Positions 3,484 to 56,630 of a stretch of DNA of 60,171 nt are shown in pieces. The DNA is from Burkholderiales bacterium. GTDB taxonomy: Bacteria; Pseudomonadota; Gammaproteobacteria; Burkholderiales; Burkholderiaceae_C. The stretch is from assembly GCA_947451035.1 (NCBI GenBank), contig CANFXR010000005.1, forward strand, positions 1 to 60,171, written 5' to 3'. Numbering within the stretch: position 1 is the first letter of the stretch; each line of letters begins with the position of its first letter. Below the pieces are notes generated by a model that worked only from the letters and a program-made list of their open reading frames with translations, had not been told where the DNA came from and made no database searches. The translations under genes and the position numbers were made by a program.

Positions 3484-3831
3484 GCGCGCGCCTCGGGGAG
3501 TTCTTGCAGGGCAGATCCACCATCATCGGCGTCATGCTTGCCGCTCCCGTCCGCGTGGGCATGTTGCCGAAACGGCCCATGAGGCAATCGTCTCGACAAC
3601 GAATTCCTACGCCAAATCAACGAATGACGCCACATCCGCCAACTCAAAATCAACGCGCTCGTGATTAATTTGGGCTGATCATGCCCTATCATTCAAAATG
3701 GGTCCCCGATTGGGGGATTCTGATCATAAGCGTAATAGTATTCCGTATTCTGCGTTCAAAGTGCTTTCCTCACTTGCGACAACTGAATGCTTGTGTCAGC
3801 GTCTTAATTTAATGAACAGCAGAGGTTGAAA
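3484..3831. other. Gap between sulfotransferase and secreted protein
   Basis: About 350 bp with no convincing gene. The first 180 bp are GC-richer than the flanking genes and carry overlapping short ORFs on both strands without recognisable domains; this could be debris of a lost gene. A small hairpin (TCCCC 3703-3707, GGGGA just after the GATT loop) follows. The last 110 bp are AT-rich and lead into the ribosome-binding site AGAGG (3821-3825) of the next gene. Confidence 0.5.
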
Positions 3832-4833
3832 ATGGGTTTAAGAATGACTTCTAATAGGTTGTGTGTTGCAGTTTTCGCGCTTCTGTTTTTGATTCTGCCA
3901 AGCGCTACTTTCGCAGGCGATGCTACATATGAAAAACTATTCAGTAAGAAGGGCGCAACAGGCGAAGAGTTGGCTCATGCGTTCTTTGACCTGTTGTCCA
4001 AAACTGGAGGTCCTGCAGGAGCAGTGGGCACAACTGCTGAGCAGGATGCTGCCTCAAAGAGGCTAATCAAGCCCTATCTTGATCCTGCTTTTCAGCTTCA
4101 AAGATCATCCGGTCAGCATTACATTGCTGAGACCTATCTTCCTGCTGATGTCGACGACTTTGAAATAGGTGAAGTTCGTGAGACACGTCCTGCTGAGGAT
4201 GTGGTGGTGGTGAGATACTTCGTGGGAGCATCACAAACGCTTCCAGATGCTGCTCTGGTGATGAGTAAAGATAAGGCTGCGCGTCTATCTGTCTTCCATT
4301 GGAGTATTTCAGATGCTCGCTGGAAGATATTGAGTCATGCAAACTTCAATACACCCATTGCAGCCTTCTGTAATCAGAAGCCTATAGTGGATAACGGACT
4401 TGAGTCGCCCGCTAGTTCTGAAGATCAGACCTTGGGGGAGGGGCTTATGAGGAATTTTTATGATCTTCTGGTTAACGGAAATGCAGAGCTAATATTAAAT
4501 CCGCTTTTTCAATACCAAAGTGCAATTGGCGTTGGCTTCACGACTCTGTCTGAGAGAAAAACAAAAACAAAATTCTCGGAGACGCAGTTTGATCATGCAG
4601 TAGTGACGCGGAATAAACGTCTTCTCATTGTTTCGCTCTATAACACAACGAAGGAGAGAGTCCTCATGGGCCAGTATCATCTTCGTGCGGGCAAGTCCGC
4701 GAGTATGGCAACGTTTCTTCAAGGGAGTGACGGAGTCTGGGCGATGATTGCCCTTGCGTCTTTCGCGCCCTCAAAGGCTCTTCCTGAGGGTGTTCTGTGC
4801 GTACCTGTTGAGAAAATGGAGCGTCTGCAATAG
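3832..4833 (+). CDS. Secreted protein with two NTF2-like repeats, function unknown
   Basis: A 333-residue protein with a clear Sec signal peptide: a basic start (MGLRMTSNR), a hydrophobic core (VAVFALLFLILP) and an ATFA cleavage site near residue 28, so it is probably periplasmic. The mature part looks internally duplicated. LAHAFFDLL near residue 45 parallels LMRNFYDLL near 204, and each half ends in a similar strand pattern (WKILSHANFNTPIAA and WAMIALASFAPSKA). This resembles tandem SnoaL/DUF4440-type NTF2 folds. The ATG at 3832 is chosen because AGAGG lies six bases upstream; a TTG two codons earlier is less likely. The gene is the AT-richest in the window and shares the patch with the sulfotransferase. 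The domain call is an inference from pattern; no substrate is suggested. Confidence 0.75.
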   Translation: MGLRMTSNRLCVAVFALLFLILPSATFAGDATYEKLFSKKGATGEELAHAFFDLLSKTGGPAGAVGTTAEQDAASKRLIKPYLDPAFQLQRSSGQHYIAETYLPADVDDFEIGEVRETRPAEDVVVVRYFVGASQTLPDAALVMSKDKAARLSVFHWSISDARWKILSHANFNTPIAAFCNQKPIVDNGLESPASSEDQTLGEGLMRNFYDLLVNGNAELILNPLFQYQSAIGVGFTTLSERKTKTKFSETQFDHAVVTRNKRLLIVSLYNTTKERVLMGQYHLRAGKSASMATFLQGSDGVWAMIALASFAPSKALPEGVLCVPVEKMERLQ

Positions 4834-5264: not shown

Positions 5265-5585
5265 ATGTACGACCACAACCAGTCTCAGCTCCCGCACTCG
5301 TTCATTGAGCTGTTCATCCCGCCCGGAAAGATGAAGCCAAGCGAGACGCGGGAGGTCATCGCTGCCCGCTACGACCTGTGCGAGGACATGGCGCAAATGC
5401 TCACCGAGCACGCGAGTGCGAAATTGTTCGAGCTGGGCGTGACCGAAAACGATGTGCTCGAGCGCATGCACCTCGGCTTGCTGCAGGACCCTGCCGCGGT
5501 CACGGCGCCCGAGGCGCGGTGGATCGTTTGCCGTCTGGCCGAACTGCTCGACTGGCCCATGGGCGCCTGGCTCAAACCGGACTGA
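5265..5585 (+). CDS. Conserved hypothetical protein (small acidic)
   Basis: A 106-residue acidic protein without signal peptide or membrane helix. The sequence from MYDHNQSQLP onward has the look of a real soluble domain: helical, with LCEDMAQMLTEHASAKLFELG near residues 44-64 and a closing RWIVCRLAELLDWPMGAWL. I recall similar short proteins in Burkholderiales, sometimes labelled as chaperone-like ATPase, but no Walker motif is present to support that label. The ATG at 5265 is preferred because the 44 codons upstream run through the repeat at 5133-5193; no clear Shine-Dalgarno site precedes it. It sits just outside the repeat-flanked patch and shows ordinary high-GC codon use. Confidence 0.7.
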   Translation: MYDHNQSQLPHSFIELFIPPGKMKPSETREVIAARYDLCEDMAQMLTEHASAKLFELGVTENDVLERMHLGLLQDPAAVTAPEARWIVCRLAELLDWPMGAWLKPD

Positions 5586-5638
5586 GCCTCGGGGCGTCAG
5601 CGCACCGCCTCAATCGCCGTGACGGTGATGGCGCCGCC

Positions 5639-6127
5639 TCATCGCACGATCACCTTGCCAACCATGCCAGCCCCGTAGTGGCCGGGGATCAGGCAGGCGA
5701 ACGGGTACTCGCCGCGCCGGGTGAACTGCCACACGATGTCGCCGCTGGCGCCCGGGGCGACGTGCGCCATGTTGGCGTTGGCGTGTTCCATCTCGGGAAA
5801 CTTCTTCATCAAATCGGCGTGTACCTTGAGTTCTTCGGTCGTGCCTAAGACCATCTCGTGGAGTTGCTGCCCGCCGTTGTGCACCATGAAGCGGACGGTC
5901 TCGCCGAGCTTGACGGTGACCTCGGACGGTGTGAACCGCAACGCGTCCGACATCTCGAGCCGGATCACGCGGTTGACTTTCTTCGGGTTGCCTCCATGGC
6001 CGAAGGAGCGTTCTTCGACCTTGGCGGGGTCGTAGGACTTCTTGGCGGTGACGTGCATGGCATCGCCGTGGGCCGCTGCAAAAGTTGAGCCGAGTGCGAG
6101 CAGGGCGAGCGTGATCAGTTTGTTCAC
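5639..6127 (-). CDS. Periplasmic cupredoxin-domain copper protein
   Basis: A 162-residue exported protein with a signal peptide (NKLITLALLALGSTFAAAHG) and a single cupredoxin fold. The type 1 copper ligands can be seen: a histidine in GGQQLHEMVLG near residue 95 and the C-terminal Cys-His-Met set in FACLIPGHYGAGM. The mature N-terminus is histidine-rich (AHGDAMH, FGHGG), a further hint of metal handling. The GTG at 6127 is preferred over an ATG at 6250 because GGAAAG lies five bases upstream and the signal peptide begins there. Related proteins accompany copper resistance genes or act as small electron carriers; no cop or cus gene is nearby, so the role is open. Confidence 0.85.
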   Translation of the reverse strand: MNKLITLALLALGSTFAAAHGDAMHVTAKKSYDPAKVEERSFGHGGNPKKVNRVIRLEMSDALRFTPSEVTVKLGETVRFMVHNGGQQLHEMVLGTTEELKVHADLMKKFPEMEHANANMAHVAPGASGDIVWQFTRRGEYPFACLIPGHYGAGMVGKVIVR

Positions 6128-6422
6128 GGGGTGCTTTCCAGCTGCTGGGTCAGTGACCGGAATGCCCGGGCTTGCGAACCTGCAAGGCGGTGCGGTCGGC
6201 GATGGAGTATGGGCCGCGCGCAGTGGTTCCCGGCTTGCTCGTGTATTCACCGGTCAGCGCGCCAGCGGCGGCTAAAGGCGCACTGGTGTGACACCGACAG
6301 GAGGCTGTATCGCCGCGAGGGCGCTTGGCATCGGCGCTAGCGAGCAGCATGACGTGCAGGCGTCGCCGTACGCCCCCGTGCGGTGTCCGAATGTCTTTGC
6401 TCTGCTCCCCCTGGGAACGGGC
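6128..6422. other. Intergenic region downstream of the SOS mini-ORF
   Basis: About 295 bp with no supported gene on either strand. It lies between the cupredoxin start and the stop codon of the 28-codon ORF. No clear intrinsic terminator is visible, so minus-strand transcription from the LexA-controlled promoter could continue toward the cupredoxin gene. Confidence 0.45.
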
Positions 6423-6509
6423 CTACAGCCAGACCCACAAGCGGCGCACCCAAGTGGGAAACGAGAGCGAAGGTTCTGGCTGGTAGCACTGGCGGTAATC
6501 GACGTTCAT
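6423..6509 (-). CDS. Candidate SOS-induced 28-residue small protein
   Basis: A 28-codon ORF beginning MNVDYRQ and ending WVRRLWVWL. It is called for its control region: a near-consensus sigma70 promoter with a LexA box over its -10 region directs transcription straight into it, and the ATG at 6509 has GGAAT about five bases upstream. An in-frame ATG at 6521 lies inside the LexA box and would leave almost no leader. The N-terminal half is polar with one cysteine. The C-terminus is a short tryptophan-rich, basic-hydrophobic tail that could touch a membrane or partner protein. Small SOS-induced peptides are known elsewhere (TisB, DinQ), but there is no sequence similarity to claim. It might also be the remnant of a longer SOS gene. 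Confidence 0.45.
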   Translation of the reverse strand: MNVDYRQCYQPEPSLSFPTWVRRLWVWL

Positions 6510-6517
6510 GGCGAATT

Positions 6518-6547
6518 CCATATACTGTATGAAAGCACAGTATATGG
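6518..6547 (-). promoter_or_regulatory. LexA (SOS) box, perfect 11-bp inverted repeat
   Basis: CCATATACTGT (6518-6528) and ACAGTATATGG (6537-6547) are perfect reverse complements around an 8-base spacer. The core CTGT-N8-ACAG, flanked by TA and TA, matches the LexA operator used in Gamma- and Betaproteobacteria. It overlaps the -10 element and presumed start site of the minus-strand promoter, the expected place for repression. Confidence 0.88.
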
Positions 6548-6566
6548 GGCGACGCGGGGCTGTCAA
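6539..6566 (-). promoter_or_regulatory. Sigma70 promoter of the SOS mini-ORF
   Basis: On the minus strand, TTGACA (plus 6561-6566) is followed after 16 bases by TATACT (plus 6539-6544). Both hexamers are at or one base from consensus, making this the best-looking promoter in the window. Its -10 lies within the right arm of the LexA box. Confidence 0.8.
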
Positions 6567-6795
6567 GGGTGCGTGGGTGTTTTGCGGTGCACGGCTCGGT
6601 CCTGGCTTGGGCAGGCGTGAGCCCTCGTAGATGCAGGCCAGTGCGGCGAGCCAGGGCCGCCCGTCGGGCTGCCGCCGCGGGTGGTCAGCCAGCGCCACGT
6701 GGCATTTCCAGGGCTGGGCGGCTCTCTGGGAATCCACAACAATGTGCCGTCCACATCAGCACATCACCACGTCGCAAGGACGAAAGGCCGCGCCC

Positions 6796-7653
6796 ATGCT
6801 TCCTGAGAATTTTTCGATCGCAGCGATGCGTGCGGAAGAAGTCCCGTTGCTGGCCGGTCTGGCGGCGGCCGAGGGGTGGAACCCGGGGTTGGCTGATGTC
6901 GATATCGCGTGGGATGTCGACCCGGGCGCCTTCATCGCCTTGCGCCGGGGTGATGAGTTGGCCGGTGGAGGAACGATCGTGTCCTATGACGGCCAGTTCG
7001 GCTTCATGGGGTTGTTCATCGTTCGCCCGGAATTCCGCGGGTCTGGCCTGGGTGGAGTCCTTTGGCGTCACCGGCTCGAGCGGTTGCGCCAACGGCTTCG
7101 GCCCGGCGCGTCCATCGGCATGGACGGCGTGTTCGCCATGGTGCCGTTCTACCAGCGTGGCGGGTTCGAACTGGCCTGGCGAGACCTGCGATTCGAGGGG
7201 GTGGCTCATGGAGTGACCGACCCGGGCGCGATACCGCTGTCGCACATGCCATTCGAAGAGGTGGAGCGTTATGACCGGGCCCATGTGCCGGCACCGCGCT
7301 CTCGTTTCCTGAGCCGCTGGATCCATCAGCCCGGAGCACTGTCAATCGGCCTGCGCGAACGCGGCGTGCTGGTCGGCTACGGCGTCGCACGTCCTTGCCT
7401 CTCGGGCTACAAGCTCGGCCCTGTGTTTGCCGACCGGCTCGATCTGGCCGAGCGGATCATCGGCAGCCTGCTGGCGTCGATCCAAGGCCGGCCGGTGCAA
7501 ATTGACGTGCCCGAGGCGAATCCGGCTGCGGTGGCGCTGGCCCGGCGGCTGTCGTTGTCTGAGGCCTTCGGCTGCGCGAGGATGTATCACGGGATCGCAC
7601 CATCGCTGCCGGTGGAGCGGATCTTCGGCGTGACTTCGTTCGAGTTCGGCTGA
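6796..7653 (+). CDS. GNAT-family N-acetyltransferase (two-domain)
   Basis: A 285-residue soluble protein. The N-terminal half is a GNAT fold with the acetyl-CoA pyrophosphate-binding motif RPEFRGSGLGG near residues 76-86, in the context MGLFIV-RPEFRGSGLG-GVLWRHRLERL. The C-terminal half resembles the second domain of YitH-type acetyltransferases (Acetyltransf_18). The ATG at 6796 starts the conserved region (MLPENFSIAAMRAEEV); the longer frame upstream would run toward the LexA promoter zone and has poor composition. The acceptor (amine, peptide or small molecule) is unknown. It converges on the MEKHLA gene and has no operon partner. Confidence 0.85.
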   Translation: MLPENFSIAAMRAEEVPLLAGLAAAEGWNPGLADVDIAWDVDPGAFIALRRGDELAGGGTIVSYDGQFGFMGLFIVRPEFRGSGLGGVLWRHRLERLRQRLRPGASIGMDGVFAMVPFYQRGGFELAWRDLRFEGVAHGVTDPGAIPLSHMPFEEVERYDRAHVPAPRSRFLSRWIHQPGALSIGLRERGVLVGYGVARPCLSGYKLGPVFADRLDLAERIIGSLLASIQGRPVQIDVPEANPAAVALARRLSLSEAFGCARMYHGIAPSLPVERIFGVTSFEFG

Positions 7654-56387: not shown

Positions 56388-56630
56388 GCACGCCCCGGCG
56401 CTGAAGCCCGCTCGCTCGGGCACCCGGTCATCGCTGCGCACCGGCGCGCACCGGCAGCCTCACCGCTGTGCCGTGGGACAGGTACCACCGAAATGAAAAA
56501 GCCAGCGCGCATGCGAATCCGAAAGTCACCGAGACAAGGTCGATATCGGCTGGGCCGCCTTGGCCCTTGAGTTCGCATTGCCTTCAGGCGGGTCGGCCGA
56601 ACCGGACCCACCCGCGCGACCGGGGTCACC

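Follow-up and report, generated by a model that had tools for sequence, protein, structure and literature searches.

A conserved microprotein gene behind a predicted LexA operator in Burkholderiales, very probably an overlooked member of the DNA-damage response

What does a strong promoter serve when it is overlapped by a LexA-type palindrome and followed by a reading frame of only 28 codons? This question is raised by positions 6,423 to 6,566 of a 60,171-nucleotide stretch of DNA (contig CANFXR010000005.1, assembly GCA_947451035.1; hereafter the window) from a Burkholderiales bacterium, for which a sequence-only reading had proposed three answers: an undescribed SOS-induced microprotein, a regulatory RNA or the vestige of a lost SOS operon. 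Cleavage of LexA derepresses the genes located behind CTGT-N8-ACAG palindromes. Such palindromes are described as the LexA target of most beta- and gamma-proteobacteria (PMC3108266). From the sequence comparisons presented below, we consider it highly probable that the locus is a real, conserved and LexA-controlled microprotein gene of Burkholderiales, the product of which is very probably an undescribed and overlooked member of the DNA-damage response and not a leftover.

Promoter, operator and reading frame

On the minus strand, a -35 hexamer (TTGACA, 6561..6566, identical in four congeners) and a -10 hexamer (TATACT, 6539..6544) are separated by 16 bases and match the consensus at 11 of 12 positions. 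As had been noticed from the sequence, the -10 hexamer lies within the predicted LexA operator (6518..6547, with its CTGT-N8-ACAG core at 6525-6540). This operator had been described as a perfect palindrome of 30 bp; its two 11-base arms (CCATATACTGT and ACAGTATATGG) are indeed perfect, but the 8 bases of the central spacer are not self-complementary and the palindrome is hence an interrupted one. It is the sole match in the window at up to three mismatches, with none found in 100 shuffles. On the plus strand, a promoter-like site (6499-6526, 9/12) also has its -10 within the palindrome.

Behind the minus-strand promoter runs, as proposed, an ORF of 28 codons (6423..6509, minus strand, ATG to TAG), whose translation is MNVDYRQCYQPEPSLSFPTWVRRLWVWL and whose ATG is preceded by a Shine-Dalgarno-like GGAA (6516..6519, minus strand; GGAG in the other three congeners). 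An alternative in-frame ATG at 6521, giving a 32-residue form, is TTG in one congener; the ATG at 6509 is retained in all four congeners compared. The last sense codons (6426..6458, minus strand) specify PTWVRRLWVWL, i.e., a PxW motif followed by eight residues with a free C-terminus, for which AlphaFold2 predicts an amphipathic helix. The neighbouring genes encode a cupredoxin (5639-6250, minus strand) and a GNAT acetyltransferase (6631-7653, plus strand), neither of which is an SOS gene, as the sequence-only reading had stated. Elsewhere in the window, a 335-aa ORF (3826-4833, plus strand) has, by eye, a start resembling a signal peptide and matches no Pfam model at E <=1.

From the -35 hexamer to the stop codon, the promoter, the operator and the ORF are kept as one block in the four congeners, the changes within the ORF being mainly synonymous. 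Past the stop codon, a stretch of 17 bases (6378-6394, ACATTCGGACACCGCAC and variants) shows 0-3 changes among the four congeners compared, in which it sits 26-86 bases beyond the stop (about 28 in the window). Elsewhere in the family it was not found, the best match outside the genus being 12/17, and it may be part of the next gene, possibly its promoter. A regulatory RNA with an incidental ORF would suit both this kept stretch and the short RNA that a strong regulated promoter is expected to yield. The mainly synonymous variation of the ORF, the restricted occurrence of the downstream stretch and its possible assignment to the next gene, together with the lack of an Rfam match (window 5500-7500) and of a terminator found at the locus, speak against it, and we regard this branch of the initial proposal as not indicated and very improbable, although a dual function as RNA and peptide may exist.

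Regarding the strength of the operator within the host genome, the bare CTGT-N8-ACAG core occurs twice in the window for 0.5 expected, and nine times in the host genome, which is the number given by a reversed-pattern control. The bare core is thus at chance level, and the information comes from the length of the arms together with position and conservation. The second core of the window (56466-56481) has a G+C-rich centre and is within chance expectation. With the extended pattern TACTGT-N8-ACAGTA, the microprotein operator is the sole site without mismatch in the host genome, which is 88% complete and from which better sites could be missing; sites with up to two mismatches number 5 against 22 for the reversed control and are therefore without weight. 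The host carries lexA and recA genes, the best upstream sites of which show 4/12 mismatches for lexA (AACTGGATGAAAATACAGCC, alike in congeners; a four-mismatch site is by itself not rare by chance) and 3/12 for recA (CACTGTACAAACATCCAGCA). The next-best site of the host (GACTGTATTTATATACAGTA, one mismatch) is located upstream of imuA, identified by the NCBIfam model NF033429 on a 115-aa fragment (E 8e-24, 84.5 bits for a whole-protein cut-off of 150). With no mismatch compared to one, three and four for imuA, recA and lexA, respectively, the microprotein operator is hence, by its predicted match, the best among the host SOS genes located.

Distribution and conservation of the family

With the 32-residue form as query, the accepted matches were found in the host genome, in four congeners (G002, G005, G010 and G011; 88-97% identity in three and 48% in the fourth) and in two other genera (G027 and G035; 48-52%), each with a LexA-like site upstream, the remaining matches being chance or a frequent unrelated frame. 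A six-member profile gave many further matches in the 399 genomes of the family, and a first loose count (CTG-N10-CAG within 200 bp, superseded by the strict CTGT-N8-ACAG counts below) found a LexA-like site upstream of all 30 top matches fetched. A 40-member profile then yielded 65 matches in 64 of the 399 Burkholderiaceae genomes. The two with the lowest scores (L182 and L183), having neither a box nor the fixed C-terminus, were removed as false and left out of all family counts. The accepted family comprises 63 loci in 62/399 genomes and 27/141 genera (29 in the tally less those of the two removed matches), many of these loci coming from related species and being therefore not independent. 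In the 40-row profile alignment, the row of L063 carries M for a start codon that is GTG in the DNA and the other 39 rows match the DNA, as do, letter for letter, all rows of the other three alignments. The microprotein is 27-30 aa long in 49/63 members; the ATG (63/63) and Shine-Dalgarno-like sequence (54/63) result from a start-choice rule favouring both and are without evidential use.

The presence of the gene is patchy, both in the family (62/399 genomes) and within the genus of the window, in which a convincing match exists in 5 of 15 genomes, own included, several of the genomes being incomplete; the gene may have been lost or gained, or the sequence may be missing. Among the named hosts are Rubrivivax gelatinosus, Ideonella paludis, Piscinibacter aquaticus, Rhizobacter, Roseateles toxinivorans, Paucibacter and Pelomonas, as well as one Inhella MAG and one Rhodoferax MAG. 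Rubrivivax and Roseateles belong to the Sphaerotilaceae (NCBI taxonomy). Across the order (399 genomes), no member was recognised outside the family, the doubtful L103 apart: a 24-member profile gave 11 matches at E 0.01, two of them within the family, and in the other nine, once read, the frame or the upstream region does not fit. A class-wide search (293 genomes) matched the own genome only.

Two loci deserve a separate mention. L103:77-187 (G513, from another family of the order) holds a small ORF, MRQHYTPKPAPIPRWAVVVLECLIGLALGALIGFSL, that shares RQHYTPKPxPxPRW with the microprotein and continues with a hydrophobic stretch where the microprotein has its Trp/Arg tail; its contig starts too near upstream for a LexA box to be visible, and the ORF could be a membrane-anchored relative or chance. 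In G269, the microprotein gene is present as two copies that differ from each other (L162 and L174), with strict boxes located unusually far upstream (-170 and -235).

The census profile was built without any box information, and the strict CTGT-N8-ACAG pattern was found within 150 bp upstream of 50/63 loci and within 250 bp of 53/63, compared with 0/63 for either of the two control regions examined at these loci. Within 150 bp, the best box has at most 2/12 mismatches in 50/63 loci and at most three in 56/63; at the latter threshold, the controls gave 1/63 downstream, 0/63 at -600 to -450 and 2.7% of shuffles. Among the seven members having no box of up to three mismatches in these 150 bp, a strict box is located at -170 to -235 in three, and four (L161, L166, L169 and L178) are without a convincing one. 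When 250 bp are considered, a site of up to three mismatches is present in 59/63 loci and two or more, overlapping and tandem sites counted, in 20/63. A -35/-10 pair of at least 9/12 is seen in only 22/63 upstream regions.

The ORF itself is under frame-specific purifying selection at the protein level. Equal-length ORFs (227 pairs, 70-99.9% identical) give a pN/pS of 0.43 in the microprotein frame and of 0.94 and 1.47 in the other two frames, and 23 non-overlapping pairs give 0.26 in the microprotein frame. Moreover, the stop codon falls exactly eight residues after the invariant PxW in 63/63 members, and since the stop codon is absent from the profile, this fixed C-terminus brings independent support. 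The typical tail is LRRLWxWL, with L in 49/63 members at the first position, R in 38 at the second, R in 47 (S in 10) at the third and L, V or I in 62 at the fourth, followed by W in 60, any residue, W in 62 and L or F in 61. Further upstream, R-x2-Y is kept in 63/63 members and Y-x-P in 61/63.

These features weigh on the idea that the locus is what remains of a lost SOS operon, i.e., an operator and a promoter with a meaningless ORF. Such a vestige would fit a very short ORF with no SOS gene next to it; it is hard to reconcile with an ORF that is present in 62/399 genomes, selected in its frame and fixed at its C-terminus, and with a unit that recurs intact in unrelated neighbourhoods, so that we reject this possibility as next to nil. 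Indeed, a lack of conservation of the ORF in relatives keeping the LexA box had been named as the outcome that would refute the initial proposal, and the opposite was observed: the ORF is conserved, mostly with its upstream box, in line with the proposal of an undescribed microprotein under a LexA-type operator.

Has this microprotein been described before? None of 24 members matches an NCBIfam model at E up to 1; with the same 24 members, Pfam and PHROGs each gave one marginal and unrelated match. No match to the microprotein was found in the PDB, and searches of plasmid records (two members as query) and of phage records (one member) gave no relevant match, a Pantoea match at 32% and E 8 being dismissed. 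In the open-licence PMC literature, no title or abstract describing the peptide was found. Among the closest known cases are hypA and hypB, two hypothetical genes without an assigned function that a comparative SOS study covering beta-proteobacteria names as predicted LexA targets, hypA being restricted to species with several chromosomes and hypB to Burkholderia (PMC3323433). A scan for the box-plus-ORF pattern, which is exact and misses diverged members, gave 41 matches, 31 real and 10 false by translation (the latter including Kiritimatiellia, Bacteroidales, Vibrio, Prochlorococcus, Adonisia and Cupriavidus gilardii), none in viral contigs and no real one in Burkholderia, Ralstonia, Cupriavidus or Variovorax. 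As the named matches exclude the genera of hypA and hypB, the microprotein and these two are probably different genes, as judged from host range.

Genomic context and other SOS genes

In the 31 named-genome loci retrieved with the box-plus-ORF pattern, no neighbour is common to all, and no neighbour cluster (ORFs of at least 80 aa, blastp 1e-8) is common to more than three, these three being congeners of the window. In addition, imuA, part of imuB, part of dnaE2, an integron integrase, recA and the N-terminal part of lexA gave no tblastn match at 1e-5 in these loci (3.4-8 kb each). As judged from these sequences, the promoter-operator-ORF unit is freestanding.

This context informs the possibility that the microprotein assists repair or translesion synthesis, as a partner of RecA, LexA, ImuA/B, DnaE2 or the clamp, instead of acting as a brake on division or growth. 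Specific invariant residues do suggest a protein partner, and other strong boxes, in the host or its congeners, precede imuA and dnaE2; the microprotein loci, for their part, gave none of the imuA, imuB, dnaE2, recA or lexA matches sought, and imuA is kept in congeners in which the peptide was not detected (G003 by family model; G008, G009 and G014 by eye), from which it follows that the peptide is not needed for the cassette. To our knowledge, the peptide also lacks a recognised clamp-binding motif. We consider such an accessory role quite improbable.

Of note, congeners with no detected peptide have other strong boxes. Perfect or near-perfect LexA boxes precede imuA (L120 by family model; L122 and L128 by eye). 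The same holds for the gene of an error-prone DNA polymerase, recognised by family model in L129 and by eye in L123. A strong box (1-2 mismatches) precedes an integron integrase gene in L137 (G009:C27; NCBIfam), an arrangement resembling the SOS-controlled integron described in PMC3108266, and L214 and L215 (G008) probably show the same organization (by eye, L214 being less clear).

Candidate roles of the microprotein

The matched part of the peptide has a median net charge of +4, its longest apolar run is of six residues and, in 63/63 members, the amphipathicity of the last ten residues exceeds that of shuffled versions of these residues (mean moment 0.63 versus 0.40). AlphaFold2 predicts a single helix of nine residues (residues 23-31 of the 32-residue form, pLDDT about 85), the rest of the chain being of low confidence (mean pLDDT 71.4, pTM 0.24). 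With no apolar run above six residues, the peptide is predicted to be unable to span a membrane, and the distribution of invariant residues along the whole chain suggests a protein partner.

We infer LexA binding, induction by damage, a late timing and the way in which the product acts, and propose the following mechanism. LexA would occupy the palindrome that covers the -10 hexamer of a strong promoter of the sigma-70 type, thereby keeping the gene off; following RecA-driven LexA cleavage, a short transcript would be made and translated into the 28-aa microprotein. This microprotein would be a late and tightly repressed SOS effector, arresting growth through a block of division and taking the role played elsewhere by SulA or SidA. 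A protein partner would be recognised by the invariant R-x2-Y...P-x-W part of the microprotein, and the amphipathic Trp/Arg C-terminal helix would dock on this partner or on the inner membrane surface. Late action is suggested by the very tight boxes that characterise late genes, among them tisB, which has the lowest heterology index in E. coli according to PMC9040746. The amphipathic C-terminus of 63/63 members and the nine-residue helix of the model are counted in favour of the C-terminal helix. That the microprotein acts as a brake on division or growth through a surface-bound Trp/Arg C-terminal helix is a serious but tentative possibility, which we place before a TisB-like toxin, itself placed before a repair or mutagenesis accessory.

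SulA, the FtsZ inhibitor of E. coli, has about 168 aa and a RecA-like fold, and the microprotein could resemble it by its role as SOS division brake. It differs by its sequence: none of the 24 members matches the SulA models of Pfam and NCBIfam (PF03846 and TIGR00623) at E up to 1. The SulA model weakly matched 27/399 family genomes, 21 of them over the cut-off, in frames of 246-387 aa in 26/27 cases, the last one (G094) having 97 aa with stops. The only one of these matches checked with family models is ImuA (195.9 bits with its own model versus 42.3 with a SulA model). A clear SulA was thus not seen among these genomes, with or without the peptide, in a reading based on 27 weak matches of which one was checked. 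Both this result and the lack of a SulA-family match to the peptide were counted for the division brake. However, SulA-model matches occur in 6/62 peptide genomes and 21/337 genomes without peptide; since they do not avoid the peptide genomes, co-occurrence gives the brake no support. The lack of a clear SulA makes room for another brake and does not show that the peptide is this brake.

Small proteins are known as SOS effectors. In Caulobacter, SidA is an SOS-induced division inhibitor of 29 aa that resides in the inner membrane and interacts with FtsW (PMC4211646). The microprotein resembles it as a small protein gene under an SOS-type operator, here by the operator only. SidA, YneA (PMC13396833) and DinQ (PMC3567139) are nevertheless described as membrane-spanning, whereas the microprotein has no transmembrane helix, which, for SidA and YneA, counts against the analogy with these division inhibitors.

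A different outcome would be a membrane-active toxin, in which the cationic Trp/Arg peptide would insert into the inner membrane or line it, reduce the membrane potential and slow down the cell. TisB, an SOS-induced type I toxin of E. coli, has about 29 aa, and the microprotein would share with it a similar size, the same type of regulation and an amphipathic part. The two also share an exceptionally tight LexA box, as described for tisB (PMC9040746), and the charge of the peptide and the amphipathicity of its C-terminus are likewise compatible with a toxin. This likeness stops at several points: the apolar run of at most six residues and the nine-residue helix are too short for a membrane span, and invariant R, Y, P and W are spread over the peptide, which fits a specific partner better than lysis. 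Neither an antisense antitoxin nor any Rfam antisense RNA (window 5500-7500) was seen; the plus strand carries the promoter-like site (9/12) mentioned above, its -10 lying in the same palindrome. Furthermore, the nearest site ends 6-62 bases ahead of the chosen ATG in 56 of the 59 loci having one, leaving little room for a long leader. A TisB-like toxin is hence unlikely in our opinion, and a brake on division or growth remains the preferred reading.

None of the three libraries tried (NCBIfam, Pfam and PHROGs) has a matching model, and the microprotein illustrates how a gene of one of the best-studied bacterial regulons can escape such libraries through its small size of only about 27-30 codons. 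It is conceivable, on a more speculative note, that these Burkholderiales, a lineage in which no convincing SulA was found, use this undescribed SOS microprotein family, devoid of a transmembrane helix, as their damage checkpoint. The fixed Trp/Arg C-terminus would then recognise a new target, or engage its target by a new binding mode, to arrest division. How division is stopped in the SOS response of beta-proteobacteria is settled by no gene found here; a conserved gene lying behind the tightest LexA box found in its genome is a direct candidate for this division stop.
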